Source: a virus. Taken from it: DNA of 30,077 nt. Position numbers and translations under genes: made by a program. Position 1 is the first letter of the stretch. Every line of letters starts with the position of its first letter. The notes under the pieces are model-generated. The model saw nothing but the letters and a program-made list of their open reading frames with translations, searched no databases and had not been told where the DNA came from. Positions 3,826-29,060 of this stretch are shown here, one piece after another. Location: the IMG/VR virus record IMGVR_UViG_3300010413_000121, positions 1-30,077 of that record; one strand, written 5' to 3'.

Positions 3826-3875
3826 TAAAAAAATTAAAAAAAATAGTTGACAAAGTTATATAAGTTATATAAATT
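3826..3875 (+). promoter_or_regulatory. Sigma70-type early promoter with A-tract UP-like element
   Basis: TTGACA lies at 3847-3852 and TAAATT at 3870-3875 with a 17-bp spacer; a TATAAT at 3881 is a possible alternative -10. Immediately upstream is TAAAAAAATTAAAAAAAAT (3826-3844), a 19-mer that recurs exactly upstream of the minus-strand promoter near 18450. It precedes two genes that lack the capsid-targeting-like signature. Confidence 0.75.
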
Positions 3876-3914: not shown

Positions 3915-4154
3915 ATGAATAAAAATGAATTACCTTCTTATCATGAATATAAATTTGTTGGTAATATAGATTGTAGAAAAGATTTGTCACATTTAAAAGA
4001 TATCAATTATAAAATTGGTGATCAAGCGTATGATCTTGATGGTAAAAAAATTCCAACTAATTATTGTTTACCTTTGTTCATTCATAAAGATGATTTTAAA
4101 AAATATGATGATATTATGATGTCAGATGATTATGTACTTCAAATATTTTATTAA
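3915..4154 (+). CDS. Hypothetical early protein, 79 aa
   Basis: Follows a sigma70-type promoter and a GTGAGG ribosome-binding site. The product (MNKNELPSYHEYKFVGNID...) is acidic, mixed alpha/beta in appearance, and without a signal peptide, membrane segment or known motif. It lacks the MKxYKS signature seen in the late genes around it. Its early-type promoter suggests a host-takeover or metabolic role, but no function can be assigned. Confidence 0.7.
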   Translation: MNKNELPSYHEYKFVGNIDCRKDLSHLKDINYKIGDQAYDLDGKKIPTNYCLPLFIHKDDFKKYDDIMMSDDYVLQIFY

Positions 4155-6870: not shown

Positions 6871-6888
6871 TTTATTACTAATAAATAT
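6871..6888 (+). repeat. Left copy of 18-bp direct repeat flanking TnpB (late-promoter motif)
   Basis: TTTATTACTAATAAATAT is identical to 8159-8176 on the other side of the TnpB gene, giving a 1288-bp period. It contains the late-promoter motif, and its last two bases begin the TnpB start codon. It may be a promoter duplicated with the insertion, or the insertion target itself. Confidence 0.8.
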
Positions 6889-8110
6889 GCAATTAGTAGA
6901 AAGACATATTATATCTAAAAATAATAAAAATTGGAAAAATATTGATTATGCTTGTTTTCTTTCTAAAAATTTGTATAATCAAGCTTTATATTTTATTAAA
7001 CAAAATTATGAAAAAACTGGCAAGGTTTTAAGATATAAAGATGTGGAAAAATATTTTAGATTAAATAATTTAAAAGAACACGAGAATTATAAATTATTAC
7101 CTAATAACACTAGTCAGCAAATTTTAATAATTTTAGACAAAAATATTAAATCTTTTTTTCAAGTACTGAAGAAATGGAAAAAAGATAAAAAAAGTTTACA
7201 AGGATGTCCTAAATTCCCAAAATATAAACATGAAAATAAAGGAAGAAATTTATTAGTTTTTACAAAAAATCAGTTTAACATAAAAAACGGTTTTCTAACT
7301 TTACCAAAGAGAATAAATATATCAAAAATTAAAACAAAAATAGATAAACAAGATGCCCAACAAGTTAGAATTATTCCTAAATCATCTTGTTATGTTTTAG
7401 AAATTATATATAATTTTAAGGAGGTAGATTATAAGTTAAATAAAGATAATTATTTAAGTATTGATTTAGGTGTTAATAATTTATGTTCCATAATAACTAA
7501 TCAACCTGGTTTAAAACCAATTTTGATAAATGGAAAAATAATAAAAAGTTTTAATACTTATTTTAATAAACTTATATCAAAAGAAAAATCCCAATTAAAA
7601 AAGAATCATAATAAAGATATTTCTAATAAAATACAAAAAATGTATTTTTATAGATATAACTGGTTAAATCATTATCTACACAATATTTCCAGATATATTA
7701 TTCAGTATTGTATTAATAATAATATTGGTAATATTGTTATTGGAAAAAGTAAAGAGTGGAAACAAAATTGTAATTTAGGAAAAATTAATAATCAAAATTT
7801 TATTCAAATACCTTTTGATACTTTAATTTATCAATTAAAATATAAAGGAAAAAAGATAGGTATTAATGTATTAGAACAAGAAGAAAGTTATACTTCAAAA
7901 ATAGATCATTTTTCTTTTGAAAAAATGGAACGTAAAGAAAAGTATTTAGGTAAAAGAATTAAAAGAGGTTTATTTCAAAGTTCTACTGGTAAAATATTAA
8001 ATGCTGATATTAATGGAGCACTTGGTATTTTGAGAAAAGTAATCGGAGACAGTTTTTTAAAATCACTTAATATAAATTTTATACAAAACCCATTAAAGAT
8101 TAATTTTTAA
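6887..8110 (+). CDS. tnpB: TnpB (IS200/IS605-type RNA-guided nuclease), zinc-ribbon-less form
   Basis: TnpB proteins are RNA-guided DNA nucleases, ancestors of Cas12. The N-terminus MQLVERHIIS...CFLSKNLYNQALY is the classic TnpB opening, so this ATG is the true start even though it lies inside the promoter-like repeat. RuvC-I is LSIDLGVNN (D193), RuvC-II is EESYTSKID (E333), and RuvC-III is NADINGALGILRK (D374), so the catalytic triad is intact. Between RuvC-II and RuvC-III the usual two CxxC zinc knuckles are absent; the sequence GKRIKRGLFQSSTGKI stands there, a known variant in some TnpBs. At 407 aa it has normal length. No tnpA transposase is nearby. It separates two late structural blocks. 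Confidence 0.92.
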   Translation: MQLVERHIISKNNKNWKNIDYACFLSKNLYNQALYFIKQNYEKTGKVLRYKDVEKYFRLNNLKEHENYKLLPNNTSQQILIILDKNIKSFFQVLKKWKKDKKSLQGCPKFPKYKHENKGRNLLVFTKNQFNIKNGFLTLPKRINISKIKTKIDKQDAQQVRIIPKSSCYVLEIIYNFKEVDYKLNKDNYLSIDLGVNNLCSIITNQPGLKPILINGKIIKSFNTYFNKLISKEKSQLKKNHNKDISNKIQKMYFYRYNWLNHYLHNISRYIIQYCINNNIGNIVIGKSKEWKQNCNLGKINNQNFIQIPFDTLIYQLKYKGKKIGINVLEQEESYTSKIDHFSFEKMERKEKYLGKRIKRGLFQSSTGKILNADINGALGILRKVIGDSFLKSLNINFIQNPLKINF

Positions 8111-13718: not shown

Positions 13719-15143
13719 ATGGATAAACATGGTAGAAAACAAAAAATGCAAGAAGAAGCCCAACGATATCTTCTTGGAAGAAAAGCAAGGGCTGATAAAC
13801 TTGTAGAAAAATGGTCAAAAACTTCTCCGGGTGCTGGATTAGATTCTTTATATACTAAAGAACCTACAAACGCAAGAAACACGGCTATGTTGGTTGAAAA
13901 CCAAGAAAGATATTTAAGACGACTTCCTGAAGCTGTTATTTCTCAAAATTTTCAAACAAGACCTGAAAATGTTCTTAAAGTTGTTAGAATTGGTTCTGCT
14001 AATTCAAACAGACAAAATATTTTTACAGAATTTCCTCTAGTTACTACTGATGATGCCATTTTCTTCATTGATATGACATATGAAAGTACTCTTAGGGGAG
14101 CAACCGCTGGTGATAAAATTTATGAAAATGTAAATAGATTTTATGCTGGTGAATCTTATGAAACATCTCAAGCAGGTAATGATACTACTACTAACGCTGT
14201 TACTGTAGCTAAAGCTCCTATTATTCCTAATAAAGTCCATATTATGGTTGATAGAGAATTAGTAGGTTATGATGATGGTGATGGTTCAATCGTTCCTGTT
14301 GGTACTACTTTAGATAGTAATGGTACAGTTAATTATACCACTGGTGTTATAACAATAACTTCAAGTGCTGCTATTACTTCTGCTGAAACAATTGCAGTTT
14401 TAGTACATTTTGATTCAGAAAGATCAACTCTTTATGATCAATTTGGTAAAGTTAGTCTTGAACTTTCTAAGAAAAGATTTGAAGCAAGACCACATCCTCT
14501 TGGATATACATATTCAATGATGACTGCTATCACTCTTGAAACCACAGGTGTAGGTGATGCAGAAGACTTACTTCTTACCGCTGTAGGTGATGAACATGCT
14601 AAATCGAGAGATTATAAAGCGATTGCACTTGCTAGAAGTGTTGCTTTAACAAATACTTCTTATACGTTTAATGCAAATTTCGCAGCTGCCGGTGAAGTAA
14701 GTGATAAACTTCATGCTCAAAAACTTCTTTCTAAAGTTAATGTTATTGGTGGTGATATTTACAATACTCTAAAAAGAGGAAGAGTAAATAAAGCTGTTGC
14801 TGGAACAGAAGCTCTTGAATATATGAAGAAACACGATTTGTGGAAAACTGATAATACTCAAAATAGAGTTGGTGTATATTTGGCTGGTTCCCTAGATGAT
14901 ATCGAAGTTTATTGTTGTCCTTCTGATGCACAACTTGTAGGAGTAAATGAAGTTATTCTTACATTTAAAAACCCTGAAGAAATGATGGATATTAGTTTGG
15001 CGTTTGGTGTTCTTACTGAAATTGATGCTGCTTTAAATTATCCTGAATTTTACAAAGATGGTAATATGGCAACAGTTGAAGATCATATGAGGATTACTCC
15101 TGAGTTCGTAAGATTGTTAACCATAAATAATCTGAGTTTCTAA
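13719..15143 (+). CDS. Major capsid protein, T4 gp23-like
   Basis: At 474 aa it lies directly after protease-scaffold, as gene 23 follows 21-22 in T4. The region PEAVISQNFQTRPENVLKVVRIG and NIFTEFPLVTTDDAIFFIDMTYES is typical of gp23-like capsid proteins, and the C-terminal half has FEARPHPLGYTYSMMTAITLE and DHMRITPEFVRLLTIN. The N-terminal ~70 residues are basic and helical and contain L-V-E at 58-60 and L-P-E at 69-71, candidate prohead-protease sites comparable to the T4 gp23 cut after residue 65. The central VDRELVGYDDGDGS...TGVITITSS region reads as an inserted beta domain. The ribosome-binding site is ACGAGGT. Codons favour CTT, GCT and GGT, consistent with high expression. Confidence 0.92.
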   Translation: MDKHGRKQKMQEEAQRYLLGRKARADKLVEKWSKTSPGAGLDSLYTKEPTNARNTAMLVENQERYLRRLPEAVISQNFQTRPENVLKVVRIGSANSNRQNIFTEFPLVTTDDAIFFIDMTYESTLRGATAGDKIYENVNRFYAGESYETSQAGNDTTTNAVTVAKAPIIPNKVHIMVDRELVGYDDGDGSIVPVGTTLDSNGTVNYTTGVITITSSAAITSAETIAVLVHFDSERSTLYDQFGKVSLELSKKRFEARPHPLGYTYSMMTAITLETTGVGDAEDLLLTAVGDEHAKSRDYKAIALARSVALTNTSYTFNANFAAAGEVSDKLHAQKLLSKVNVIGGDIYNTLKRGRVNKAVAGTEALEYMKKHDLWKTDNTQNRVGVYLAGSLDDIEVYCCPSDAQLVGVNEVILTFKNPEEMMDISLAFGVLTEIDAALNYPEFYKDGNMATVEDHMRITPEFVRLLTINNLSF

Positions 15144-15174
15144 ATACATATAAAAATATAAAGAAAGATTTTAT

Positions 15175-15208
15175 TCCCTTATGTGAAATATCATAAGGGA
15201 TTTTTTTT
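15175..15208 (+). terminator. Rho-independent terminator after the capsid gene
   Basis: Arms TCCCTTATG (15175-15183) and CATAAGGGA (15192-15200) enclose an 8-nt loop and are followed by eight T. Nearly the same hairpin recurs at 16317 after the sigma-like gene, so the 15230-16274 unit is bracketed by sister terminators. Confidence 0.9.
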
Positions 15209-15229
15209 GTAAAAAACTGAGATTTTTTG

Positions 15230-15258
15230 TTGACGTTTTTATATATTTTATATATTAT
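15230..15258 (+). promoter_or_regulatory. Sigma70-type early promoter
   Basis: TTGACG (15230-15235), 17-bp spacer, TATTAT (15253-15258). It lies just after the capsid terminator and drives the zinc-ribbon and sigma-like genes, so these are likely expressed early while the genes on either side are late. Confidence 0.8.
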
Positions 15259-15282
15259 ATTATATATAAAGGATATAAGAAT

Positions 15283-15564
15283 ATGAAAGAAGAAACAGTT
15301 ATAATTACAAAAAAAGAATATGAATCTTTGTTAAAAGATTCTGAAAAATTATCTACTTTAGAAAAAATGAAGAAAAGTAAAACACAATGGGAAGAAATAA
15401 CAGAATATATAGCATATGCTGAATGTCCTTATTGTAAAAGTATGCAAGATGTCTATGGTTTTAGTAGAAATGTAAATGAAGGAGATTGGTTTAAAGGAAA
15501 AGTTACTTGTCCTAAATGTAGTAAAAATTTTATGTTAGAAATTGAAGCATTTTACGATGTATAA
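15283..15564 (+). CDS. Zinc-ribbon protein, 93 aa
   Basis: The N-terminal third (ITKKEYESLLKDSEKLSTLEKMKK) is a short coiled coil. The C-terminal part has a four-cysteine zinc ribbon, AECPYCKSMQDV...KVTCPKCSKNFMLEIEA, with CxxC pairs about 26 residues apart. Such small ribbon proteins in phages usually contact nucleic acid or RNA polymerase. It is first behind an early promoter (ribosome-binding site AAAGGA) and precedes a putative sigma factor, so a transcription-related role is possible but inferred. Confidence 0.8.
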   Translation: MKEETVIITKKEYESLLKDSEKLSTLEKMKKSKTQWEEITEYIAYAECPYCKSMQDVYGFSRNVNEGDWFKGKVTCPKCSKNFMLEIEAFYDV

Positions 15565-15626
15565 TATAAATTTCTATAAGGAAATGATTTTAAAAAAATA
15601 TTTAAATGATATAAAGGAAATAGTTT

Positions 15627-16274
15627 ATGAATGAAGATTTAAAAAATATTATTTTATATCAGGACACAAAAAAAGAAAAGTACATTAATTTTTTAATAAA
15701 CAAATATAATAATTTGGTGTGGGGTTATGTGAATAGAATTTATAAAAAATATAAAAATTTAAGTCTTTCACCTAACGACATCTATCAGGATCACATAATT
15801 ATTTTTATACAAGTAATAAATAGAGTAGATAGAAACAAAATTAAAAAAAATGTTAATTTTAATTTTATTTTTTGTGTATATCAAGATTTTAAAGCTTATT
15901 CAAAAATATTAGAAAAAAGATACATATCATATAACTATGTATCAATATATTTTGATTTAGAAGGATTAGAATCCGATATGAAAAAAGGGGTGTATTATGA
16001 TATATGTGATAAAAGATATAATGTTGATAATAATTTTTTAAAAGACGATTTATATAATTTTTTAAATAATTTATTTGAAATAGACAGACAAGTTTTTGAA
16101 TTAATACTTCAAGGTTATAATCTATTGAATATTTCAAAAGAATTAAATCAAAAATATTATAAAATTAAAAAAATAAAAACGAAATTAATTTCTTATTTAA
16201 AAACATATATGTTAAATTTAGGATATACAATAGAAGATTTACAAAGAAATTATTTTTGTGATGCATTTTTTTAA
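15627..16274 (+). CDS. Putative sigma-70-family factor (late sigma candidate), 215 aa
   Basis: The N-terminal half resembles sigma region 2: FLINKYNNLVWGYVNRIYKK followed by SPNDIYQDHIIIFIQVINRV (residues about 48-67), like the D-(L/I)-x-Q-(E/D) core of ECF-type sigmas. The C-terminal part resembles region 4: FEIDRQVFELILQGYNLLNISKELNQKYYKIKKIKTKLISYL (about 150-191), a helix-turn-helix with the R-x-V-x-x-L start. The length is close to T4 gp55 (185 aa). It is transcribed from an early promoter and ends at its own terminator. It is the natural candidate to recognise the TTACTAATAA motif. The protein is highly diverged, so the assignment rests on pattern and context. Confidence 0.55.
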   Translation: MNEDLKNIILYQDTKKEKYINFLINKYNNLVWGYVNRIYKKYKNLSLSPNDIYQDHIIIFIQVINRVDRNKIKKNVNFNFIFCVYQDFKAYSKILEKRYISYNYVSIYFDLEGLESDMKKGVYYDICDKRYNVDNNFLKDDLYNFLNNLFEIDRQVFELILQGYNLLNISKELNQKYYKIKKIKTKLISYLKTYMLNLGYTIEDLQRNYFCDAFF

Positions 16275-16316
16275 TTTTTAATTTTTCATTTTTAACCTCA
16301 AATATATAATTTTAAA

Positions 16317-16350
16317 ATCCCTTATGTGAAAAATCATAAGGGATTTTTTT
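16317..16350 (+). terminator. Rho-independent terminator after the sigma-like gene
   Basis: Arms ATCCCTTATG (16317-16326) and CATAAGGGAT (16335-16344), then a T run. The last T residues are also the first bases of the next late-promoter motif, so termination of the early unit and initiation of the terminase unit share bases. Confidence 0.9.
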
Positions 16351-16363
16351 ACTAATAATTATA
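16349..16363 (+). promoter_or_regulatory. Candidate late promoter abutting the terminase start
   Basis: TTACTAATAATTATA ends directly at the terminase ATG (16364). With a -10-type element this close, the mRNA would be leaderless or nearly so. The gene has no Shine-Dalgarno. Confidence 0.6.
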
Positions 16364-18355
16364 ATGGAAAATAAAGAAAATGTTAGGAAATTACTTGATT
16401 TAACTTATGAAAAATTAAATCTTCAAGAAAAAATAAAAATGCATCTTTTATTTAAAGATTTAAATAAAGATGATCAATTATATAATCAATTAAGAAAAAT
16501 TATTTTTAGAATGGAACCTCCTTCACCAGAACAATTTCTTGATCATCATGAAGGTTGGTTAACTAAACCGTTTACTGAATCTCTTTATGATCATGTAAAA
16601 GAAGATTTTTGTGAAATATTAAACCCTGATAAAAATTATGAACAAATATGTGAATACGGATGCACACGGCAAGGTAAGAGTTGGATGGGCAGATTACTTA
16701 TTATGTATACAATGATTTATGTACATTGTTTACGTCACCCCCAATTATACTATGGTTTAGCTCCTACAACATCATTGAGTATTTATATAATGTGTTTTAA
16801 AGAAGAAAAAGTAAAACAATTGTTACTTGAACCTATATTTAAATTTTTATTTGCATCCCCTAGATTTAAAAATATAAGATTTAAAGATAAAGTGAGTGAA
16901 ACTCAATATAAAAATGGATTAGAAAATATATATTGGAGTAAAGCAGCAACTTTTGGTGAAATAACAATGGATTCAGGGTTATCTTTGAATTTAGGTACTA
17001 AATTTGATTCTTTTATAGGAGCGGATTTATTATTCCTTATTGTATCAGAAATAGCTTTTTTTATACAACAGGCTGGTGCTACACATGAAGATATTTTTAA
17101 AATATATACAGAAGGTAGAGATAGAATACAAGCAACGGTAGGTAAAAATTATTTAGGAATGGTATATCTTGACACTTCAGCCAATGATACTGAAAATCCC
17201 ATTGAAAAATATATTTTAAATGATTTACAACATCAAGATAATGTTTTTTTTAAAAAAAGAGCTAGATGGGAAGCTAGACCTTATTTATATCCAGAATGGT
17301 ATTCTACTGGAAAAACATTTAAAATATGTACAGGAGATGGGCATAACCCCCCTAAAATAATAAAAAATGAATTAGAATTAAAAGATATTCCTAGAAAACT
17401 TATTAAAGATATTCCTATTGATGCTTATAAAAGATTTCAAGATGCTATTCTTCAAGGTATAAGAAATGAAGCTGGTGACCCAACTACAAAAGAAAATAAA
17501 TTTATTACAGAAAAAGTAATAATTGATAGTATTTTTTCTAATCCACATCTAAGAAATATTGAAGGTGGTTTAATTGCAGAAGCTTCAAATTTTCCTGAAC
17601 AATTATTATGGAATCAAATTAAAGATAAATTTTTTATAAACTATGATGATAAACAAAATTATATATATAGAGCACCTCTTGAACCAAGATTTACAGGAAA
17701 TGATTTAGCACATTCAATAAAAGGCGATGTTCAAGGTTTTTGTTTATTACATAAAGAATGGAGTTTAAAAAGAGAGTGTATAATGTATATAATAGATTTT
17801 TGTTTTATTATATACGCAAAAGAATCAGGAATAAATCTTGAAGCAATAACTCATTTAATAATGGATTTGTTTAAAGAAGGTAGTGTAGCAATAAAAAGTT
17901 CAGGTTCAGATAGTTTTCAAAGTCAAACATTAATACAATATTTAAAAAGAAACAATATTGAAGCAATAAAACAATCGGTTGATGATTCATTAAATCCCTA
18001 TCAATATTTTTTAACTTGTTTAAAACAGGGTATAGTAAAAGCAGGTAAAAATATATTTTTAGCTAATAATTTAGATTCACTTATTGAAGATACAACAAAA
18101 AGTGGTAAAAAAAAAATAGATCATATAAAAGGTAAAACAAATAATAATTATTTAGGAGATTGGAATAGAAGTACTTGTGGTATAAATGCAAAAGATTGTT
18201 CTGATGCTGTTTGCCAAGCTTTATGGACTGCTAAAAATAATCAACATCATCCAACTACTATTTATGAAGAAGAAAATAAAAAGTTTGAAGCAAAACCTGA
18301 AGATGTAGAAAAATTTGTTTCTAATGCTTGGAATAAATTACATATAAATTATTAA
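16364..18355 (+). CDS. Terminase large subunit (packaging ATPase/nuclease)
   Basis: Drives DNA into the prohead and cuts it. The N-terminal ATPase has a Walker A-type loop CEYGCTRQGKSWMG (residues about 97-109) and a Walker B-like LLFLIVSEIAFF (E229 as catalytic glutamate). The C-terminal RNase H-like nuclease shows acidic strands SIKGDVQGFCLLH (D455) and MYIIDFCFII (D478), and a late helix region with DDSLNPYQYFLTCLKQGI. At 663 aa it is on the long side but within the range of large phages. No small terminase or portal gene is recognised in the window. The start has no Shine-Dalgarno and touches a late-promoter motif. Confidence 0.88.
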   Translation: MENKENVRKLLDLTYEKLNLQEKIKMHLLFKDLNKDDQLYNQLRKIIFRMEPPSPEQFLDHHEGWLTKPFTESLYDHVKEDFCEILNPDKNYEQICEYGCTRQGKSWMGRLLIMYTMIYVHCLRHPQLYYGLAPTTSLSIYIMCFKEEKVKQLLLEPIFKFLFASPRFKNIRFKDKVSETQYKNGLENIYWSKAATFGEITMDSGLSLNLGTKFDSFIGADLLFLIVSEIAFFIQQAGATHEDIFKIYTEGRDRIQATVGKNYLGMVYLDTSANDTENPIEKYILNDLQHQDNVFFKKRARWEARPYLYPEWYSTGKTFKICTGDGHNPPKIIKNELELKDIPRKLIKDIPIDAYKRFQDAILQGIRNEAGDPTTKENKFITEKVIIDSIFSNPHLRNIEGGLIAEASNFPEQLLWNQIKDKFFINYDDKQNYIYRAPLEPRFTGNDLAHSIKGDVQGFCLLHKEWSLKRECIMYIIDFCFIIYAKESGINLEAITHLIMDLFKEGSVAIKSSGSDSFQSQTLIQYLKRNNIEAIKQSVDDSLNPYQYFLTCLKQGIVKAGKNIFLANNLDSLIEDTTKSGKKKIDHIKGKTNNNYLGDWNRSTCGINAKDCSDAVCQALWTAKNNQHHPTTIYEEENKKFEAKPEDVEKFVSNAWNKLHINY

Positions 18356-18415
18356 AAAAATATCCCATTATTTCTAATGGGATAGAAAATGAATAAAAAA
18401 AATCAAAACTTTAAT
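18354..18415 (-). ncRNA. Candidate ~60-nt minus-strand small RNA
   Basis: Read on the minus strand, a full sigma70-type promoter (18450-18422) is followed after about 40 nt by a perfect 10-bp hairpin, TATCCCATTA/TAATGGGATA (18384-18361, loop GAAA on the minus strand), and then a run of seven U (18360-18354). This makes a compact promoter-RNA-terminator unit with no ORF in it. It ends at the terminase stop codon in convergent orientation. The same hairpin has no T run on the plus strand, so it is better explained as a minus-strand terminator than as the end of the terminase mRNA. Confidence 0.6.
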
Positions 18416-18421
18416 ATATAT

Positions 18422-18450
18422 AATATATAAAAAATATGTAAAAATGTCAA
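18422..18450 (-). promoter_or_regulatory. Minus-strand sigma70-type promoter
   Basis: On the minus strand TTGACA (18450-18445), exact 17-bp spacer and TATATT (18427-18422). Upstream, 18480-18462 reads TAAAAAAATTAAAAAAAAT, the same 19-mer found before the promoter at 3847. No minus-strand gene follows it, only the candidate small RNA. Confidence 0.75.
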
Positions 18451-18477
18451 TCTAAAATTAAATTTTTTTTAATTTTT

Positions 18478-18491
18478 TTACTAATAAACAT
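18478..18491 (+). promoter_or_regulatory. Candidate late promoter for the membrane-protein cassette
   Basis: TTACTAATAAACAT lies 25 nt upstream of the ATG at 18516, which has an AGGAGA ribosome-binding site. It is back to back with the minus-strand early promoter. Confidence 0.65.
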
Positions 18492-18515
18492 ATTTATAAT
18501 TTTTAGGAGAAATGT

Positions 18516-18752
18516 ATGTTTTCTAAAGTAAAAAAAGTAATGTATTATATTTTAGCTGTTTTAGCCATCATAGCTATTATAGTACCGTATATTTTAATTT
18601 ATTTTTATCTTAAAAAATCAGGTCAAACAATTACTATTTATCCATCTTTTAAAATAAGTAAAATAGAAAATACTACAGAAATAGATAAAAATGCATTAGA
18701 AAGTGGTTTAAGAATTGCAAATGAAATTTTAGAAAAAGCAAAGGAGAACTAA
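18516..18752 (+). CDS. Small N-terminally anchored membrane protein, 78 aa
   Basis: A short basic start (MFSKVKKVMYY) is followed by one long hydrophobic segment (ILAVLAIIAIIVPYILIYFYL, about residues 12-32), then a soluble tail ending in a helix (ESGLRIANEILEKAKEN). The positive-inside rule puts the tail outside the cytoplasm. The ribosome-binding site is AGGAGA. It is first of four adjacent small membrane proteins behind a late promoter, a plausible lysis (holin/spanin-type) or envelope-interaction cassette. No family is recognised. Confidence 0.72.
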   Translation: MFSKVKKVMYYILAVLAIIAIIVPYILIYFYLKKSGQTITIYPSFKISKIENTTEIDKNALESGLRIANEILEKAKEN

Positions 18753-18755
18753 CTA

Positions 18756-19196
18756 ATGAAAAAAATCTTTTTAATTTTTTGTGTTTTAATTTTTACATTA
18801 CCTTTATATGGTGATATAGATAATGATGAAGTTACTATATCTTATAGAGGTAAAGAATGGGGAATGTCTTTTAGTCAATTTCGTACTTTAATAATTGCTG
18901 CTGGTGTACAAAATGAATTAGTAAAAGCAGAAAATAGTAAAAGAATAAAAGTATATTTAGAAAAAAAAGAATGGTCTTTAAATTCAGAAAATGATTTTAA
19001 AGTAAATATGAGAATTGTATGGTTTGATTCTAAAATGAAACCTTTAAAAATATTGAATCTTGAAGGTAAATTAAATCTTAAGAAAGATAATACTAAAAAA
19101 GATAATAAAATGGTACTTTATTATAAAAAAGCTGCTTCGTGGGGTTTTCCTGCATCAGTATTAATAAATATAATTTTACTAATGATTTTAATATGA
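18756..19196 (+). CDS. Secreted, C-terminally anchored protein, 146 aa
   Basis: It begins with a classic signal peptide (MKKIFLIFCVLIFTLPLYG, with likely cleavage after residue 19) and ends with a hydrophobic segment (ASVLINIILLMILI). The exported middle section is beta-rich and lysine-rich (VTISYRGKEWGMSFSQF, KVNMRIVWFDSKMKPLKIL). In a phage lysis cassette an exported protein with a membrane anchor could act like a spanin or as a superinfection-exclusion factor; neither can be shown. The ribosome-binding site AAAGGAG precedes it. Its stop overlaps the next start (ATGA). Confidence 0.75.
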   Translation: MKKIFLIFCVLIFTLPLYGDIDNDEVTISYRGKEWGMSFSQFRTLIIAAGVQNELVKAENSKRIKVYLEKKEWSLNSENDFKVNMRIVWFDSKMKPLKILNLEGKLNLKKDNTKKDNKMVLYYKKAASWGFPASVLINIILLMILI

Positions 19197-19396
19197 TAAA
19201 TATAAGGGTATATCTAAAATATTTTTTAACTTTCATAGCAGGATTTTTATGCTTTGTTTTAGTTAGAGAATTAAAACCTTCTATAATAGGATATTTAAGT
19301 ATACTAATTTTTTTAATTGGAGTAGTGTGTGGCAACATAATAGCAAAAGAAAATATAAAATGCCAAAAAAGAAAAAAAATAAAAAAGAAAAAATAA
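19193..19396 (+). CDS. Two-helix membrane protein with basic tail, 67 aa
   Basis: The ATG at 19193 overlaps the previous stop as ATGA, which favours it over an in-frame ATG at 19139. Two hydrophobic segments (YLKYFLTFIAGFLCFVLV and IIGYLSILIFLIGVVCGNII) are separated by a short RELKPS turn and followed by a strongly basic tail (KCQKRKKIKKKK). This is holin-like topology with both ends in the cytoplasm. Its 3' end overlaps the next gene by 37 nt. Family not recognised. Confidence 0.65.
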   Translation: MINIRVYLKYFLTFIAGFLCFVLVRELKPSIIGYLSILIFLIGVVCGNIIAKENIKCQKRKKIKKKK

Positions 19397-19620
19397 TAAC
19401 TATAAAAATTTCTCTTGAAACTTTTAAAAAGATTTGGGATAAAATAAAGAAGTTTTTTAAACATAAAGTAACTAAAAATTCAATTATTATTATAGTAATT
19501 GTTACTGTACTTTATGGTTTTTCTATGTCTTGGTCATATGATAAAAGACGTGGTTTAAGGTGTAATGGTGGATTTTCACCACCTGAACCGGATACTATAA
19601 ATAAAGTAATAAAAAGATAA
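19360..19620 (+). CDS. Basic single-span membrane protein, 86 aa
   Basis: The best start is the ATG at 19360 (MPKKKKNKKEKIITIK), inside the end of the preceding gene; an ORF start at 19327 is less likely. An extremely lysine-rich cytoplasmic half is followed by one span (NSIIIIVIVTVLYGFSM, about residues 50-66) and a short outside tail with GGFSPPEPDT. The final codons (VIKR stop) coincide with the eroded start of the following duplicated gene. It could be a holin or antiholin component of the cassette. Confidence 0.6.
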   Translation: MPKKKKNKKEKIITIKISLETFKKIWDKIKKFFKHKVTKNSIIIIVIVTVLYGFSMSWSYDKRRGLRCNGGFSPPEPDTINKVIKR

Positions 19621-19868
19621 GAAATTATTTAAAAGATATGAAAGATATTGAAGAAGTTTTAAATGAAAATTATTTTAATAAATTAGTAAACGATTTGATT
19701 AATGAATTAGAAAAATCCTGGAACAAGAATTTACAAGATATTAGTGAATGGTTTAAAAAAGAGTTTGAAAAAAAGAATATTGTGAATAAAAAAATACAAA
19801 ATTTAATAAAAGAATATGTTTTATATTTTTATTTTATATTAAAAGATTCAAATTATGAGATTAAATAA
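19609..19868 (+). pseudogene. Decayed copy of the gene at 19910 with lost N-terminal signature
   Basis: From 19638 (MKDIEEVLNENYFNKLVNDLINELEKSW...) this 76-residue frame is a close paralog of the protein at 19910 from that protein's residue 15 onward. The bases upstream, from 19609, still align with the start and signature of the intact copy, but ATG has become ATA, one base is missing after AAAAGATA, and about 12 nt are absent before the internal ATG. The signature is therefore destroyed. The internal ATG has no Shine-Dalgarno. It is either a pseudogene or a truncated, untagged version. Confidence 0.6.
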
Positions 19869-19909
19869 ATGAATAAATATAAATTTTTTGTTAGAAAAGG
19901 TATACTTTA

Positions 19910-20176
19910 ATGAAAAGATATAAAAAATTATTTGAGAGAGAAGAAATAACTATGAAAGATATTGAAGAAGTTTTTAGTGAAAAATCTTTTAATGAATTAG
20001 TAAGTGAATTAATAAATGAATTAAAAGAATCGTGGTCAAAAGACATACAAGATATTGGAGATTGGTTTGAAGAACAATTTCAAAAAAGAAACATAGTAAA
20101 TGAGAAAATGAAAAATCTAATAAAAGATTTTGTTATATATTTTAAGAATCAAAATATTTTGAAAGAGGTAAAATGA
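19910..20176 (+). CDS. MKRYKK-type putative internal virion protein, 88 aa
   Basis: Begins MKRYKKLFEREEITMKDIEEV, with L-F-E at residues 7-9 as a candidate prohead-protease site. The rest is an acidic helical domain (FNELVSELINELKESWSKDIQDIGDWFEEQFQKRNIVNEKMKNLIKDFV). It is the intact copy of a tandem duplication whose other member (19638-19868) has lost the signature. The start follows AAAAGGTATAC and the stop overlaps the next start as ATGA. Confidence 0.8.
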   Translation: MKRYKKLFEREEITMKDIEEVFSEKSFNELVSELINELKESWSKDIQDIGDWFEEQFQKRNIVNEKMKNLIKDFVIYFKNQNILKEVK

Positions 20177-20424
20177 ATAAATACAAAAGTTACAAAAGTA
20201 TTTTCGACAAAAAAATAAAAGTTGTTGAACAAGAATCAGAAGAAGAAAAAGCAAAAGAATCAATAAAATGGCTTATTGATAATGATTGGGGTGTTGATAA
20301 TGACTCTCAGGGTAAAGCCAGCCAACTTTTTAAAGCTTTATCATTCAATAATTCATCTGTATCGAATAAATTTATGGATGAAGTAAATAAATATACTTCT
20401 ACATTAAAAGATAAATATCAATAA
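20173..20424 (+). CDS. YKSYKSIF-type putative internal virion protein, 83 aa
   Basis: Begins MNKYKSYKSIFDKKIKVVEQ; the YKS element is repeated within the tag. The body is helical (AKESIKWLIDNDWGVDNDSQGKASQLFKALSFNN). It may be a distant paralog of the protein at 10878 (shared L-x-DN-x-G, then L-x-x-LS, then V-x-x-K). The start overlaps the preceding stop as ATGA and follows AAGAGG. Confidence 0.78.
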   Translation: MNKYKSYKSIFDKKIKVVEQESEEEKAKESIKWLIDNDWGVDNDSQGKASQLFKALSFNNSSVSNKFMDEVNKYTSTLKDKYQ

Positions 20425-20448
20425 ATTAAATCATGGGGGTTTTTGAAT

Positions 20449-20685
20449 ATGAATAAATATAATTCTATATTTGAATCAGATAAAAAATTTTCTGATATGT
20501 CTATTGAAGAATTATATGATGAACGTGATAAACTTTTGAATAGTCAAATAAAAGCAGATTTTATTGATCCTAAAATTATGAGAAAGGTTCAAGAAATAGA
20601 TAATTTAATTTTTGATATTTCAAAAAAAATTAAAAAAGGAAAAAGGAGTCAAAGAACAATTAGTTTTACAAGAGACAGAAGATAA
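20449..20685 (+). CDS. MNKYNSIFE-type putative internal virion protein, 78 aa
   Basis: Begins MNKYNSIFESDKKFSDMSIE, with I-F-E at residues 7-9. The ATG at 20449 is chosen over a TTG two codons upstream because it gives the signature and sits well behind GGGGG. The body is a helical hairpin (SIEELYDERDKLLNSQIKAD; RKVQEIDNLIFDISKKIKK) ending in a very basic tail (KKGKRSQRTISFTRDRR) that could bind DNA inside the capsid. The stop overlaps the next ATG by one base (TAATG). Confidence 0.78.
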   Translation: MNKYNSIFESDKKFSDMSIEELYDERDKLLNSQIKADFIDPKIMRKVQEIDNLIFDISKKIKKGKRSQRTISFTRDRR

Positions 20686-21032
20686 TGCCTATCCTTCTTA
20701 ATAAACTTCAAGGTGTAAGTGTATCAGGTGAAGGAATTTCTCAAGCAGGTCACAGACAGTTAGATCAGATTGTACATGATATTGCTGAAACATCTTATTA
20801 TGAAGTTACATATAACAGTACACATACATGGAGAATTGACACTGAAATTTGGTGGACAAATTCATCGAAAACAGAAAAAATAAGAGAAATAGAATACACA
20901 TATACAGATGTATGGAAAATAAGTACTGAGACTATTAAGCAATATTCATCAGGTGTACTTTCTGAGACGCTTATTAAAAATTACAATTATAGTGGAATTT
21001 TTGTAACATATATAAATGAGGTTTTAACTTAA
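20685..21032 (+). CDS. Virion structural protein, 115 aa
   Basis: Begins MPILLNKLQGVSVSGEGISQ, followed by AGHRQLDQIVHDIAETSYYEVTY and a beta-rich half with repeated K-I-R-E-I-E-Y-T-Y and ETLIKNYNYSG segments. I recall similar LDQ-(L/I)-VH-x-IAE-x-SY proteins in phage tail, fibre or adaptor gene clusters, of unsettled function. It lacks the MKxYKS tag. It is followed without a gap by an inserted GIY-YIG endonuclease gene and then further virion genes. Confidence 0.7.
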   Translation: MPILLNKLQGVSVSGEGISQAGHRQLDQIVHDIAETSYYEVTYNSTHTWRIDTEIWWTNSSKTEKIREIEYTYTDVWKISTETIKQYSSGVLSETLIKNYNYSGIFVTYINEVLT

Positions 21033-21980
21033 ATGTATGGTGTGATCTATAAAGCAACAAATGTAATAAATAATAAATGTTATATAGGACAAACAACTAT
21101 AAAGTTTGAAAGTAGAAAAATATTACATTTAAGTGAATTAAGAAAAAATAAACATTATAATTCTCATTTTCAATATTCTTTTAATAAATATGGTGAAGAA
21201 AATTTTATTTGGGAAATTATAGATAATGCTATTTCTTTAAAAGAATTAAATAAAAAAGAAAAAGAATGGATTTGGTTAAATAATTCAAATGATGGTGATT
21301 ATGGTTATAATCTTGAAGAAGGTGGGAAAAATAGTAAACCTTCTGAAGAAACAAAGAAAAGAATGAGTGAATCACAAAAGAATAGAAATATAACAGATAA
21401 ACATAAAAAGAAAATAAGTAATACTTTGAAGGGTAGAAATCTTTCTAAAACACATAGAAAAAAAATAAGTGAAGGTAATAAGGGTAGAGTTGTATCTAAA
21501 GAAACAAGGAAAAAAATAAGTGAAAGTAATAAAGGAGTAAAAAGAAGTGAAGAAACAAAGAAAAGAATGAGTGAATCACGTAAAGGTAAAAAAAATTCCG
21601 AAGAAACAAGGAAAAAGATAAGTGAAAGTAATAAAGGTAGAGTTGTATCTAAAGAAACAAGGAAAAAAATAAGTGAAGGTAATAGGGGTAAATTAATATC
21701 AGAAGAAACAAGGAAAAAGATAAGTAAAAAATTAACAGGTTTTAAGCATTCAAATGAATCTAAAAAGAAAATGAGTAATTTTCAGAAAGGTAGAAAACAC
21801 ACAGAAGAAACCAAAAAGAAAATAAGTAAAGCTAATAAAGGTAAAAAACACACAGAAGAATCAAGAAAAAAAATGAGTAAATCACAAAAGGGGAGAATAA
21901 TATCAGATATAACTAAGAAAAAAATGGGTATTGCCCAAAAAAAGAGATGGAAGAAACAAAAAGAGAATAAGGTAGTATAA
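21033..21980 (+). CDS. GIY-YIG homing endonuclease with 12 NUMOD3-type repeats
   Basis: The N-terminal catalytic domain shows GVIYKATNVINNKCYIGQT (GIY-YIG motif) and ends with the typical GYNLEEGGKNSK. From about residue 103 there are 12 near-identical ~17-residue units of the form (S/T)EET(R/K)KK(I/M)SES-x-KG, the NUMOD3 DNA-binding module of GIY-YIG homing enzymes. That is many more than the few usually present. Two blocks (about 21480 and 21632) repeat almost exactly at DNA level. The gene sits between two structural genes with a 0-1 nt gap on each side (stop TAA before, TAATG after). It is free-standing, with no split host gene visible. Confidence 0.95.
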   Translation: MYGVIYKATNVINNKCYIGQTTIKFESRKILHLSELRKNKHYNSHFQYSFNKYGEENFIWEIIDNAISLKELNKKEKEWIWLNNSNDGDYGYNLEEGGKNSKPSEETKKRMSESQKNRNITDKHKKKISNTLKGRNLSKTHRKKISEGNKGRVVSKETRKKISESNKGVKRSEETKKRMSESRKGKKNSEETRKKISESNKGRVVSKETRKKISEGNRGKLISEETRKKISKKLTGFKHSNESKKKMSNFQKGRKHTEETKKKISKANKGKKHTEESRKKMSKSQKGRIISDITKKKMGIAQKKRWKKQKENKVV

Positions 21981-22645
21981 TGCAGTCACCAGTAATTTTA
22001 ATAATTAATGAAGCGGGAGAAATTGTTACTACAAGCAGTTTAAGTAGTGGAAAAACAGCACTTGATGTAAAAGCTGTTATAAGTGGTGAGTCTTTTGTTC
22101 AAGAAGAGAGAGTTAGTGGTGAAAGTATATTACGTGTAAATAATGACTATAAAACACCCTTTAAAACTTCATGGTTTCAATCATACTTGAATAATGGTGG
22201 AAGTATAGAAATGGCAGTAGACGGGTCTAGTTCTAATGTTGTGTTTGGATATTTTGCAGATACAACATATGATACATATATAACAGAATTAAGACTTCAT
22301 GGACAAGATCATGGTTCGTCTATGTTAGATTTTTTAGGTATTTCTAATGGATTAACTAATGGATTACAATTAGATTTTAAAAGTAAAAATATAACTAATG
22401 TACTAATGAATTTACAAACTACATGGGATATTTTTGTTAAATTTGTTTATCCTTCTGAAGAATTTTATATAATACAAGAGTCAGCAAGTAGCCATTTTGT
22501 TACAGCAGTAAGAAAGTTTGATAATCCAATTGTTATAAAAAAACAAGGTACTTATGCTTATGATGATTATGTTGTAATGCGTGTCAGAGATAATTTAACT
22601 GGAATGGATATACTAAGATGTACATTATTTGGATATAAAGAATAG
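21980..22645 (+). CDS. Virion structural protein, 221 aa
   Basis: Begins MQSPVILIINEAGEIVTTSS and is serine/threonine/glycine-rich and probably mostly beta structure (SGESFVQEERVSGESILRVNN, SIEMAVDGSSSNVVFGYFADTTYDTY, ITELRLHGQDHGSSMLDF). The composition and position point to a tail, fibre or decoration protein. No catalytic motif is seen. The start overlaps the endonuclease stop (TAATG), the configuration that would be left by a clean insertion of the endonuclease between coupled genes. Confidence 0.7.
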   Translation: MQSPVILIINEAGEIVTTSSLSSGKTALDVKAVISGESFVQEERVSGESILRVNNDYKTPFKTSWFQSYLNNGGSIEMAVDGSSSNVVFGYFADTTYDTYITELRLHGQDHGSSMLDFLGISNGLTNGLQLDFKSKNITNVLMNLQTTWDIFVKFVYPSEEFYIIQESASSHFVTAVRKFDNPIVIKKQGTYAYDDYVVMRVRDNLTGMDILRCTLFGYKE

Positions 22646-24487: not shown

Positions 24488-26122
24488 TTATTCTATTACA
24501 AAAACTAAATTCCCACAATCCCAAATTCTATCATACCCATTATTTTTCATATTTTCCCATTCGGATAGTTTGGGATTAAAATTTTCTAATATATTTTTTA
24601 ATTTATGTTTTTGATATTTTATTCTACTTTCTAGTATATAATGATTTTTTGTATAATAATAATTAGGACTTGTTTCGTGTAAAAATTTAAATTTATTTTT
24701 TATATATACTTTTCCAGTTGAATATCTTTTATCTGCATAAGAAATTATAGAACCAATGTAATTTTTTTTAAAATAATATAATATTTTTGAAAAACCTCCA
24801 GTTACTAAAATATTAATTTTAGTTGCAAATCTAACTAGTTCATAATCATATTTTTTATTATATCTTGTTTTACTAAAAGAAGATACTTGCAATAAAGTTT
24901 CTTTATAGAATAATCCAATATATATTTTAGAACTAATAAATCCTTGTAAATGATTTTCATTTAAAAATTTTTTTGCTTCTTTTGGTGTAATTTTTTTTAT
25001 ATTACATTTTCTTGCATAAATTTTATTTTTTAGAATTCCTAATTTATTTAATATTAAAGATTTTACTATTTCTTTTTTATTATCCCATTCATTACCCCAT
25101 ATATGTATAACAAAAATATTTTTATTTTTGAAATAGTTTGTTTTATCTAAATGATATTTTTTATTTTTATTTCCTGATATTTCTGAATGATAATATTCAC
25201 CATTTATTTCAATTCCTATATTTTTAGAAGGAATAAATATGTCTAGTTCATATTTAAATTTTTTATTTTCAAAAAATCTTTTATTCTCTTCAATTTTAAT
25301 ATACGATTTTAACCAAGTTTGTATTTCTTTTTCTAATAGAGATTTATTACAATTTGGACAACCACTTTTACAATTTAAAAGATTTCCTGGACGTGTTTTC
25401 CATTTATAATTACATAATAAACATTTAAATTCAATTTTTATATTTGATTTTTTATAATTTTCTATTCTAATTATATCGGAATTAATTTTTTTCAATTTTT
25501 TGTCAAAATCTTTATTTGTATATGTTCTTTTTTGTATATTTATAAGTTTATTACATTTAGGACATCCATAACCAGATAAGATATCATTAGGTCTTGATAA
25601 AAAAATATTATTACATTCTAAACATTTAAATTCAATTTTTTTTAATGCTTTTATATAATTTCCTATTCTTAAAATATTTAAATTTTTACTTAATATTTTT
25701 ATATCTAATTCTTTATTATTGGATATTGATATTTTACTTCTTATTTTATTATAACAATTAGGACATCCAGAACCTTTTAAAATATTAGATGGTTGTACTT
25801 TCCAAATATGTTTACAAATTTTACATTTAAATTTAATTTTTGTATGATTACTTATATATTTTTCTAATCTTTTTACATCTTTTCTTATTTTTTTTAAATT
25901 TATATCAAAATTAGCTTGTCTTATTTTTCTATTATACATTTTTTTACAATTAGGACAACTATTAATATGGGCTGGTTTAATTTTCCATGTATAACTACAT
26001 AATTCACATTTAAAAGTTATGGTTATTATATTTCCTTTATAGTCATCTATTCTAGTTAAATTAGGATTTATATTAAATAATTTTTTGTCAAATTCTTTAT
26101 TTGTTAGTGTTTTAAATAACAT
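24488..26122 (-). CDS. Vsr/EDxHD-like homing endonuclease with four zinc-ribbon repeats, 544 aa
   Basis: Residues 1-260 contain four ~60-residue repeats, each with an F-x-(F)-D-x-K(L)-x-x-(I)N segment, an RI-x-x-Y-K strand, FKC-x-x-C-x-(Y)-x-W(K)-x-x-P, and a closing CP-x-C: zinc-binding DNA-reader modules. Residues about 265-360 form a PD-(D/E)XK-like nuclease with YELDIFIPSKNIGIEINGEYYHSE (D294, E305) and FVIHIWGNEWDNK, as in Vsr and EDxHD homing enzymes such as I-Bth0305I. Residues ~370-544 form a GNAT/Mom-like accessory domain common in large-phage endonucleases (FLNENHLQGF, YELVRFATKI, SYADKRYSTG, GYDRIWDCGNLVFV). It is the only minus-strand gene. The ribosome-binding site is AAAGGA on that strand. 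Confidence 0.9.
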   Translation of the reverse strand: MLFKTLTNKEFDKKLFNINPNLTRIDDYKGNIITITFKCELCSYTWKIKPAHINSCPNCKKMYNRKIRQANFDINLKKIRKDVKRLEKYISNHTKIKFKCKICKHIWKVQPSNILKGSGCPNCYNKIRSKISISNNKELDIKILSKNLNILRIGNYIKALKKIEFKCLECNNIFLSRPNDILSGYGCPKCNKLINIQKRTYTNKDFDKKLKKINSDIIRIENYKKSNIKIEFKCLLCNYKWKTRPGNLLNCKSGCPNCNKSLLEKEIQTWLKSYIKIEENKRFFENKKFKYELDIFIPSKNIGIEINGEYYHSEISGNKNKKYHLDKTNYFKNKNIFVIHIWGNEWDNKKEIVKSLILNKLGILKNKIYARKCNIKKITPKEAKKFLNENHLQGFISSKIYIGLFYKETLLQVSSFSKTRYNKKYDYELVRFATKINILVTGGFSKILYYFKKNYIGSIISYADKRYSTGKVYIKNKFKFLHETSPNYYYTKNHYILESRIKYQKHKLKNILENFNPKLSEWENMKNNGYDRIWDCGNLVFVIE

Positions 26123-26142: not shown

Positions 26143-26157
26143 TATAATTATTAGTAA
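26143..26157 (-). promoter_or_regulatory. Minus-strand late-promoter motif for the endonuclease
   Basis: TTACTAATAATTATA read on the minus strand, 20 nt upstream of the only minus-strand gene. Its orientation switches with the gene, which is the best single argument that the motif is a promoter. Confidence 0.7.
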
Positions 26158-27517: not shown

Positions 27518-27552
27518 AAATTAACTATCAAAAATAATTATTTAAAAATAAA

Positions 27553-27582
27553 AACCTTCATAGAAATATGAGGGTTTTTTTA
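27553..27582 (+). terminator. Rho-independent terminator after the fibre gene
   Basis: Arms AACCTTCAT (27553-27561) and ATGAGGGTT (27568-27576), with one G-T pair and a 6-nt loop, followed by T residues. The next promoter begins about 10 nt later. Confidence 0.85.
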
Positions 27583-27591
27583 TTTATTTTG

Positions 27592-27620
27592 TTGACGTTC
27601 ATGTATTTTTTATATATATT
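27592..27620 (+). promoter_or_regulatory. Sigma70-type early promoter
   Basis: TTGACG (27592-27597), exact 17-bp spacer, TATATT (27615-27620), the same architecture as at 15230. It drives the small gene at 27698. Confidence 0.82.
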
Positions 27621-28156: not shown

Positions 28157-28185
28157 TTGAAGATACTATATAATTTATATATATT
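28157..28185 (+). promoter_or_regulatory. Sigma70-type early promoter for ardC
   Basis: TTGAAG (28157-28162), 17-bp spacer, TATATT (28180-28185), preceded by A/T tracts like those at 3826. It lies 41 nt before the ardC start. Confidence 0.75.
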
Positions 28186-28226: not shown

Positions 28227-29060
28227 ATGAGTAAAAAAATTTATGAAAAAATTAATGAACAAATAAAAAACGCATTACATGAAGCAAAAGAAAATGGATG
28301 CTATCCTGTTTGGGAAAAGAAGTGGTTGGTAATACAAAAACAAAACAGAAAATCAGGACATATTTATAAAGGTATAAATAGATTTCTTCTTGCTAGTGAC
28401 TATAATGAAGAATTTTATTTAACTTTTAATCAAATAAGAAGTTATAAGAAAGCCCATTTAAGAAAAGGTTCTAAATCCAGAACGGTTGTTTTTTGGAAGA
28501 TTTATAATGTAGCAGATAAAGAAAATGAAGATGAAGTAAAAAGTATCCCACTTTTAAAAGAATATAAAATTTTTCGTGTAAGTGATATAGATGGAATACC
28601 AGAAAAAGAAATTGAAGGTGAAAAAGATAATAAGAAAAAAGAAGATTTTGAAAATTGGTTTAAGAATATATGTAAAAAAATAAATCTTGAAATTGTTATC
28701 GGTGGAAGTCAACCTTGTTATGTACCGGAAGAAGATAAAATATATTGTCCCGATATAAAAAGATTTGAAAATAGTGATTATTATTATCAAACGCTTGCTC
28801 ATGAATTGATACATGCAACTGGAAATAAAAAAAGATTAAATAGATTTAAGAAAGGAAAAGAAAATTATGCAAAAGAAGAATTAGTTGCTGAGATTGGTTC
28901 TGCTTATATTTGTAATTTATTTAAAATAAAATTAATTCAACATAATGTTGCTTATATTGATAATTGGATAAATGCTATAAATGAAGATTATAGTTTATTA
29001 GTTTCATCAAGTGGAAAAGCAGAAAAAGCTCTTGAATATTTAGAGTGTATAGAAAAATAA
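28227..29060 (+). CDS. ardC: ArdC-like antirestriction protein with zincin metallopeptidase domain
   Basis: The N-terminal ~100 residues are an ArdC-N (DUF1738) single-strand-DNA-binding domain (PVWEKKW, YKGINRFLLAS, YLTFNQIRSYKKAHLRKGSKSRTVVFWKI). The C-terminal domain is an MPTase-PolyVal-type zincin with HELIHATG (H192, E193, H196) and YAKEELVAEIGSAYICN supplying a third ligand. ArdC proteins protect entering DNA from restriction. At 277 aa it is full length. The ribosome-binding site is AAAGGAG. The early-type promoter fits a protein needed at the start of infection. A linker with an acidic-basic stretch (EIEGEKDNKKKEDFE) separates the domains. Confidence 0.9.
   Translation: MSKKIYEKINEQIKNALHEAKENGCYPVWEKKWLVIQKQNRKSGHIYKGINRFLLASDYNEEFYLTFNQIRSYKKAHLRKGSKSRTVVFWKIYNVADKENEDEVKSIPLLKEYKIFRVSDIDGIPEKEIEGEKDNKKKEDFENWFKNICKKINLEIVIGGSQPCYVPEEDKIYCPDIKRFENSDYYYQTLAHELIHATGNKKRLNRFKKGKENYAKEELVAEIGSAYICNLFKIKLIQHNVAYIDNWINAINEDYSLLVSSSGKAEKALEYLECIEK

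Follow-up and report, generated by a model that had tools for sequence, protein, structure and literature searches.

A predicted self-contained small-RNA gene on the minus strand beside the terminase gene of an uncultured bacterial virus

The spacer downstream of the terminase large subunit gene of an uncultured, very AT-rich bacterial virus very probably gives rise to a non-coding RNA of roughly 60 nt from the minus strand, i.e., it holds a predicted RNA gene. Because this unit has an early-type promoter and its own terminator, and relatives have no such cassette, we regard it as a self-contained early RNA unit, 56-62 nt long and specific to this lineage. Its promoter class, its terminator, the missing ORF, and its absence from relatives can be read from the sequence itself, and we infer that the unit is transcribed, and transcribed early. 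We tentatively favor the explanation that it is an RNA-only moron, expressed early and gained beside the terminase gene, which would most likely act in cis as an antisense to the mRNA running from terminase into the downstream gene, as lambda OOP RNA does. Throughout, "the window" means the whole stretch of viral DNA that was analyzed (30,077 nt; 25% GC).

The unit sits in the 160 bp that separate the terminase gene from a 78-aa single-TM protein gene, both of which are on the plus strand. Read on the minus strand, positions 18354-18450 consist of TTGACA-17-TATATT, 37 nt, TATCCCATTA-GAAA-TAATGGGATA, and TTTTTTT (Table 1). An earlier note on this DNA had described these elements, and each is present: the TTGACA/17 bp/TATATT promoter at 18450-18422; the non-coding stretch of ∼40 nt, which measures 37 nt between the -10 and the hairpin and contains no ORF; and the perfect 10-bp hairpin followed by seven U, at 18384-18361 and 18360-18354. 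We placed the RNA start (∼18415-18409) from the -10 and its end in the U-run, and the predicted length of 56-62 nt, together with the unit's own promoter and terminator, supports that note's proposal of a self-contained minus-strand RNA of ∼60 nt. A search of the minus-strand transcript region for an ATG-initiated ORF found none; there is a single TTG codon without a ribosome-binding site, and the plus strand carries a 13-codon ORF, MNKKNQNFNIYNI, at 18389-18430. An alternative, overlapping promoter can also be read on the minus strand (TTTACA-18-TATATT, 18442-18413). The terminator hairpin and its tail have a predicted folding energy of -12.7 kcal/mol. Read on the plus strand, the hairpin runs into GAAAATGAATAAAAAA, which contains no T-run; this rules it out as a plus-strand terminator and bears out the remark that it does not serve terminase. 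No plus-strand terminator was found in the spacer between terminase and the TM gene.

Table 1. Features of the small-RNA locus and of the promoter classes in the window.
Feature	Position	Strand	Basis or detail
Early-type promoter	18422..18450	-	-35 TTGACA 18450-18445; 17-bp spacer; -10 TATATT 18427-18422
Predicted non-coding RNA, 56-62 nt	18354..18415	-	sequence; no ATG-initiated ORF
U-rich 5' segment AAGUUUUGAUUUUUUUUAUUCAUUUUC, single-stranded	18385..18411	-	unpaired in predicted fold
Intrinsic terminator	18354..18384	-	perfect 10-bp stem, GAAA loop (18384-18361), U7 (18360-18354)
Terminase large subunit gene	16364..18355	+	tblastn to annotated large terminases, best E 4e-26; relatives
Late-type promoter motif TTTACTAATAAA	18477..18488	+	back to back with the minus promoter; kept directly after terminase in relatives
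Single-TM protein gene, 78 aa	18516..18752	+	49% identical to same-place gene in L047
Same-class promoter	3847..3875	+	upstream of gene 3915-4154
Same-class promoter	15230..15258	+	upstream of zinc-ribbon and sigma-like genes; shortly after terminator 15175-15200
Same-class promoter	27592..27620	+	shortly after terminator 27550-27579
Same-class promoter	28157..28185	+	upstream of ArdC-like gene 28227-29060
Motif TTACTAATAA(A), candidate late promoter before genes	2186, 4432, 6875, 8163, 16349, 18478, 26190, 29127	+	recurrent, intergenic
Motif TTACTAATAA(A), candidate late promoter	26155	-	recurrent, intergenic
MKRYKSLFKE-like N-termini	2736, 3136, 5077, 5695, 6053, 10403, 10642, 10878, 11120, 19910, 20173, 20449

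With 11 of 12 consensus matches, the minus promoter is the best of the 47 promoter-like sites in 15000-22000. Such sites are as common as in shuffled sequence, with 57.9 expected in that interval and, across the whole window, four sites of at least 11/12 compared with ∼3 per shuffled window. Because ∼3 sites of this quality occur in each shuffled 25%-GC window, a generic promoter match alone is weak evidence, and this frequency speaks for the reading that an AT-rich spacer merely resembles a promoter and a hairpin by accident. We consider such a coincidence very improbable. A T-tailed stem of 8 bp or more arises ∼0.84 times per shuffled window, but none of 25 shuffles had a promoter with a terminator downstream within 150 nt, and the promoter is also set apart by its family. 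We built a family matrix solely from four plus-strand intergenic early-type promoters (3847, 15230, 27592, and 28157), each of which precedes a gene and which share TTGA[C/A][A/G], a 17-bp spacer, a TATATT-like -10, and a TATATATTA context. When every position of both strands was scored, the minus promoter (18450) ranked fifth, directly behind the four training sites, with 23.2 bits versus 10.7 for the next site, and 0 of 60 locally composition-preserving shuffles reached its score, a result softened but not canceled by the training promoters having been picked after inspection in AT-rich DNA. When each of the five promoters was left out in turn, it ranked directly behind the other four.

This family is common to four plus-strand genes and is distinct from the ACTAATAAA late-type motif, in agreement with the early class that had been proposed for the RNA. 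The early-type promoters and the ACTAATAAA motif precede different sets of genes. The motif TTACTAATAAA has seven plus-strand copies in the window, all intergenic, and zero on the minus strand; one copy (18478) stands ahead of the TM gene, ∼30 bp from the minus promoter. A shorter motif, ACTAATAA, also precedes the sole long minus-strand gene (motif at 26155; gene 24488-26122). A sigma-like gene (15627-16274; phrog_351, E 1e-8) lies upstream of terminase and behind an early-type promoter. The TTGAC class is presumably read by the host polymerase and early, and the ACTAATAAA class late, with the small RNA belonging to the former and the downstream TM gene to the latter. As separate observations on these classes, the minus-strand gene 24488-26122 encodes treble-clef zinc-finger repeats (DUF4379) with, by eye, a nuclease-like C terminus, and with its own late motif and adjoining GAAA-loop terminator it resembles a mobile cassette; gene 28227-29060 encodes ArdC N-terminal and zincin metallopeptidase domains (Pfam) and is a possible anti-restriction factor.

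We also asked how often such a promoter leads straight into a terminator. We examined 119 TTGACA-17-TATATT promoters from other viral contigs: a likely start site follows 93 of them, and three are within 110 nt of any terminator-like hairpin. The arrangement is unusual, since only one of these three, in L103, enters a very strong terminator at once without a prior start site. In L103 (11982, minus strand), the terminator hairpin has 16 bp and is reached directly, with no ORF in between.

The hairpin of the small RNA looks built to end a leftward transcript because both its GAAA strand and its T-run are on the minus strand. All eight other GAAA-loop terminators found in the phage group (24455 and 27550 in the window; L032:6038; L035:3985 and 5734; L069:19745; L072:11145 and 13683) have their GAAA on the sense strand of the gene that is ended. 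We scanned the window and six related records for strong terminators, and that of the small RNA was the one clear case antisense to both neighbors and equipped with its own promoter, ending only its own short unit. Other candidate orphan terminators were rejected: L030:4694 comes after an unlisted 67-aa gene, L062:14435 comes after a minus gene, and L062:16982-17020 and L070:14131-14160 are matching-junction hairpins with an arm overlapping a late-type motif on the other strand. The remaining apparent orphans in relatives are weak. The exact long hairpin pattern was not found in the viral contigs; its 18-nt core matched a normal-looking terminator with T9 in L074 and a site directly behind an apparent transposase gene end in L073.

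Joint conservation of promoter and hairpin in relatives had been set beforehand as a test of the small RNA, and at this locus that test fails. We compared 12 related contigs (L047, L048, L005, L006/L007, L049, L050, L051, L053, L054, L009, and L057), which include two sets of near copies (L006/L007 and L050-L054). In all 12, a late motif follows close after the terminase stop, taking the TTACTAATAA(A) form in L005, L006/L007, L047, L048, L050, L051, L053, L054, and L057, and in all 12 both the hairpin and the minus promoter are absent between terminase and this downstream motif. The closest relative, L047 (60% terminase identity), has the same gene order as the window, i.e., sigma-like gene, terminase, TM gene (27% identity for the sigma-like protein and 49% for the TM protein), and a spacer of 46 bp compared with 160 bp in the window. 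The window's lineage has therefore acquired ∼115 bp, unless every other lineage has lost them. We read the absence as a recent, lineage-specific gain and not as proof that nothing is there; it is what would be expected of an inserted autonomous unit. Its absence from every sampled relative leaves no trace of purifying selection, makes a covariation test impossible, and takes away evolutionary support for a function. A search for relatives with the major capsid protein as query found none. The terminase genes of some relatives are apparently split by intein-like inserts (L009:5947-9009 and L003:1993-5557), that of L003 containing an HNH-like ORF.

The same absence would suit a functionless remnant, namely an early gene cassette that has lost its gene and whose promoter is now fused to its terminator, and the window does contain several single-gene insertions as well as terminators beside promoters as the normal joint between units. 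We find this origin unlikely, as promoter and terminator are both intact whereas unused sequence should decay, and the minus strand has no leftover ribosome-binding site or start codon. Among the joints in the window, two 90% identical terminators (TCCCTTATGTGAAA.ATCATAAGGGATTTTTTT; 15175-15215 and 16318-16358) flank the zinc-ribbon and sigma-like genes, and the second runs straight into a late-type motif, forming a fused terminator-promoter joint (16314-16358) that is also seen in relative G003 (L034:16542).

The preferred explanation, an inserted early RNA that is antisense in cis, would work as follows. The phage would have acquired a self-contained early RNA gene between terminase and the late promoter of the gene that follows. 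Host RNA polymerase would transcribe it leftwards from the early-type promoter and stop ∼60 nt on at the unit's own terminator. The product, with a U-rich tail at its 5' end followed by the terminator hairpin and its GAAA loop, would pair with the mRNA running from terminase to the downstream gene and lead to cleavage or silencing there, as OOP does on the cII-O mRNA. By position, 18354-18415 is perfectly complementary over 56-62 nt to any mRNA that spans terminase and the TM gene, a complementarity that is certain if both RNAs exist and because of which we rank OOP-like antisense action first; a trans-acting small RNA would come second. The RNA would be antisense to the terminase 3' UTR and extend to the terminase stop codon. 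Besides the lack of the cassette in relatives, it weighs against this explanation that an early RNA and a late mRNA would have to overlap in time, and that the RNA covers only the terminase stop codon and 3' UTR, with no ribosome-binding site.

Lambda OOP lies on the strand opposite a long operon, at the junction of two operon genes, and has its own promoter and terminator. The present unit resembles it as a short stand-alone transcript opposite an operon at a gene junction, with its own promoter and terminator, here predicted from sequence, and the OOP-type antisense relation to the mRNA of the opposite operon holds by position (18354-18415). OOP, however, overlaps the coding part of cII and is conserved in lambdoid phages, whereas the present unit covers just a stop codon and 3' UTR and is missing in relatives. 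Phage RNAs of such size and geometry are already on record (PMC12197685; PMC5869508): OOP is 77 nt and involves RNase III action, and P22 sar is an antisense RNA of 68/69 nt (PMC12197685). That RNAs of similar size and geometry work in OOP and sar counts for our main reading. The likeness to sar is that of a short phage antisense RNA; sar controls the translation of ant through base pairing with its mRNA, whereas the present unit is a predicted RNA with a putative target.

Its sequence also shows the traits of a stand-alone phage small-RNA gene, i.e., its own promoter, an intrinsic terminator on the same strand, and no encoded protein. Like a moron, it has its own promoter and terminator and is inserted between genes that are adjacent in relatives, but morons carry a protein gene and this unit has no ORF. 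Phi29 pRNA is a multi-helix RNA of >100 nt; the present unit is likewise a predicted small early phage RNA and adjoins the terminase gene, but it has one hairpin in ∼60 nt and no Rfam packaging-RNA match. RNA anti-CRISPRs (solitary repeat units) are short phage RNA units with their own promoter, features predicted here as well; Rfam CRISPR-DR matches at the locus are at chance level only (E 1.5 and 4.8, bits far below the gathering score). Rfam searches of the whole window, with a permissive search of the locus, matched no family, and a tRNA or tmRNA search found none. A role as replication-origin primer was rejected, there being no GC-skew switch at the site.

Instead of acting in cis, the RNA might be a trans-acting base-pairing small RNA whose unpaired U-rich UUUAUUCAUUUUC tail binds AGAAAAUGAAUAAAA-type AUG regions in early phage mRNAs or in host mRNAs, blocking translation, which we regard as possible but doubtful. 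The segment AAGUUUUGAUUUUUUUUAUUCAUUUUC is complementary to AUG regions, e.g., AAAATGAATAAAAA at gene 3915, where a 14-nt exact complement spans the AUG (4% of shuffles gave one as long or longer, as did 17% of other intergenic 27-mers, some of which reach into start regions). In the search for complementary stretches that the earlier note suggested, the two best duplexes among 45 start regions are with genes 28227 (ArdC-like) and 3915, both of the same promoter class, but shuffled tails reach best energies just as good. The five early-class genes have a rank sum of 41 versus 99.6±24.7 in shuffles (1% as low), in a test that was post hoc, and any U-rich RNA finds A-rich start regions, so the targets are generic. 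A combined version, in which a newly acquired RNA-only moron acts in trans via the UUUAUUCAUUUUC tail and silences early-class phage (or host) start sites at the late switch, seems unlikely.

It is also improbable, in our view, that the RNA is a by-product of transcription itself, with polymerase at the minus promoter keeping the late-type promoter closed early and the terminator shielding the terminase gene from antisense transcription. The geometry would permit this (the -35 at 18450 and the late motif from 18477 are ∼30 bp apart, so that footprints overlap) and the terminator is placed directly ahead of the coding region, but relatives with the same late motif manage without the cassette, and late promoters presumably require a late factor anyway.

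Most phage small RNAs that have been studied well belong to temperate phages infecting a handful of laboratory hosts. If our preferred explanation of a gained early RNA gene is true, RNA genes can enter phages of uncultured hosts as discrete cassettes. The promoter and terminator rules derived here are a route to finding more such units. Elsewhere in the window, many otherwise different proteins share an MKRYKSLFKE-like N terminus, which could be a capsid-targeting or processing signal, and, judged by eye, 21033-21980 encodes a GIY-YIG-like endonuclease with repeat units and 6887-8110 a TnpB-like protein.
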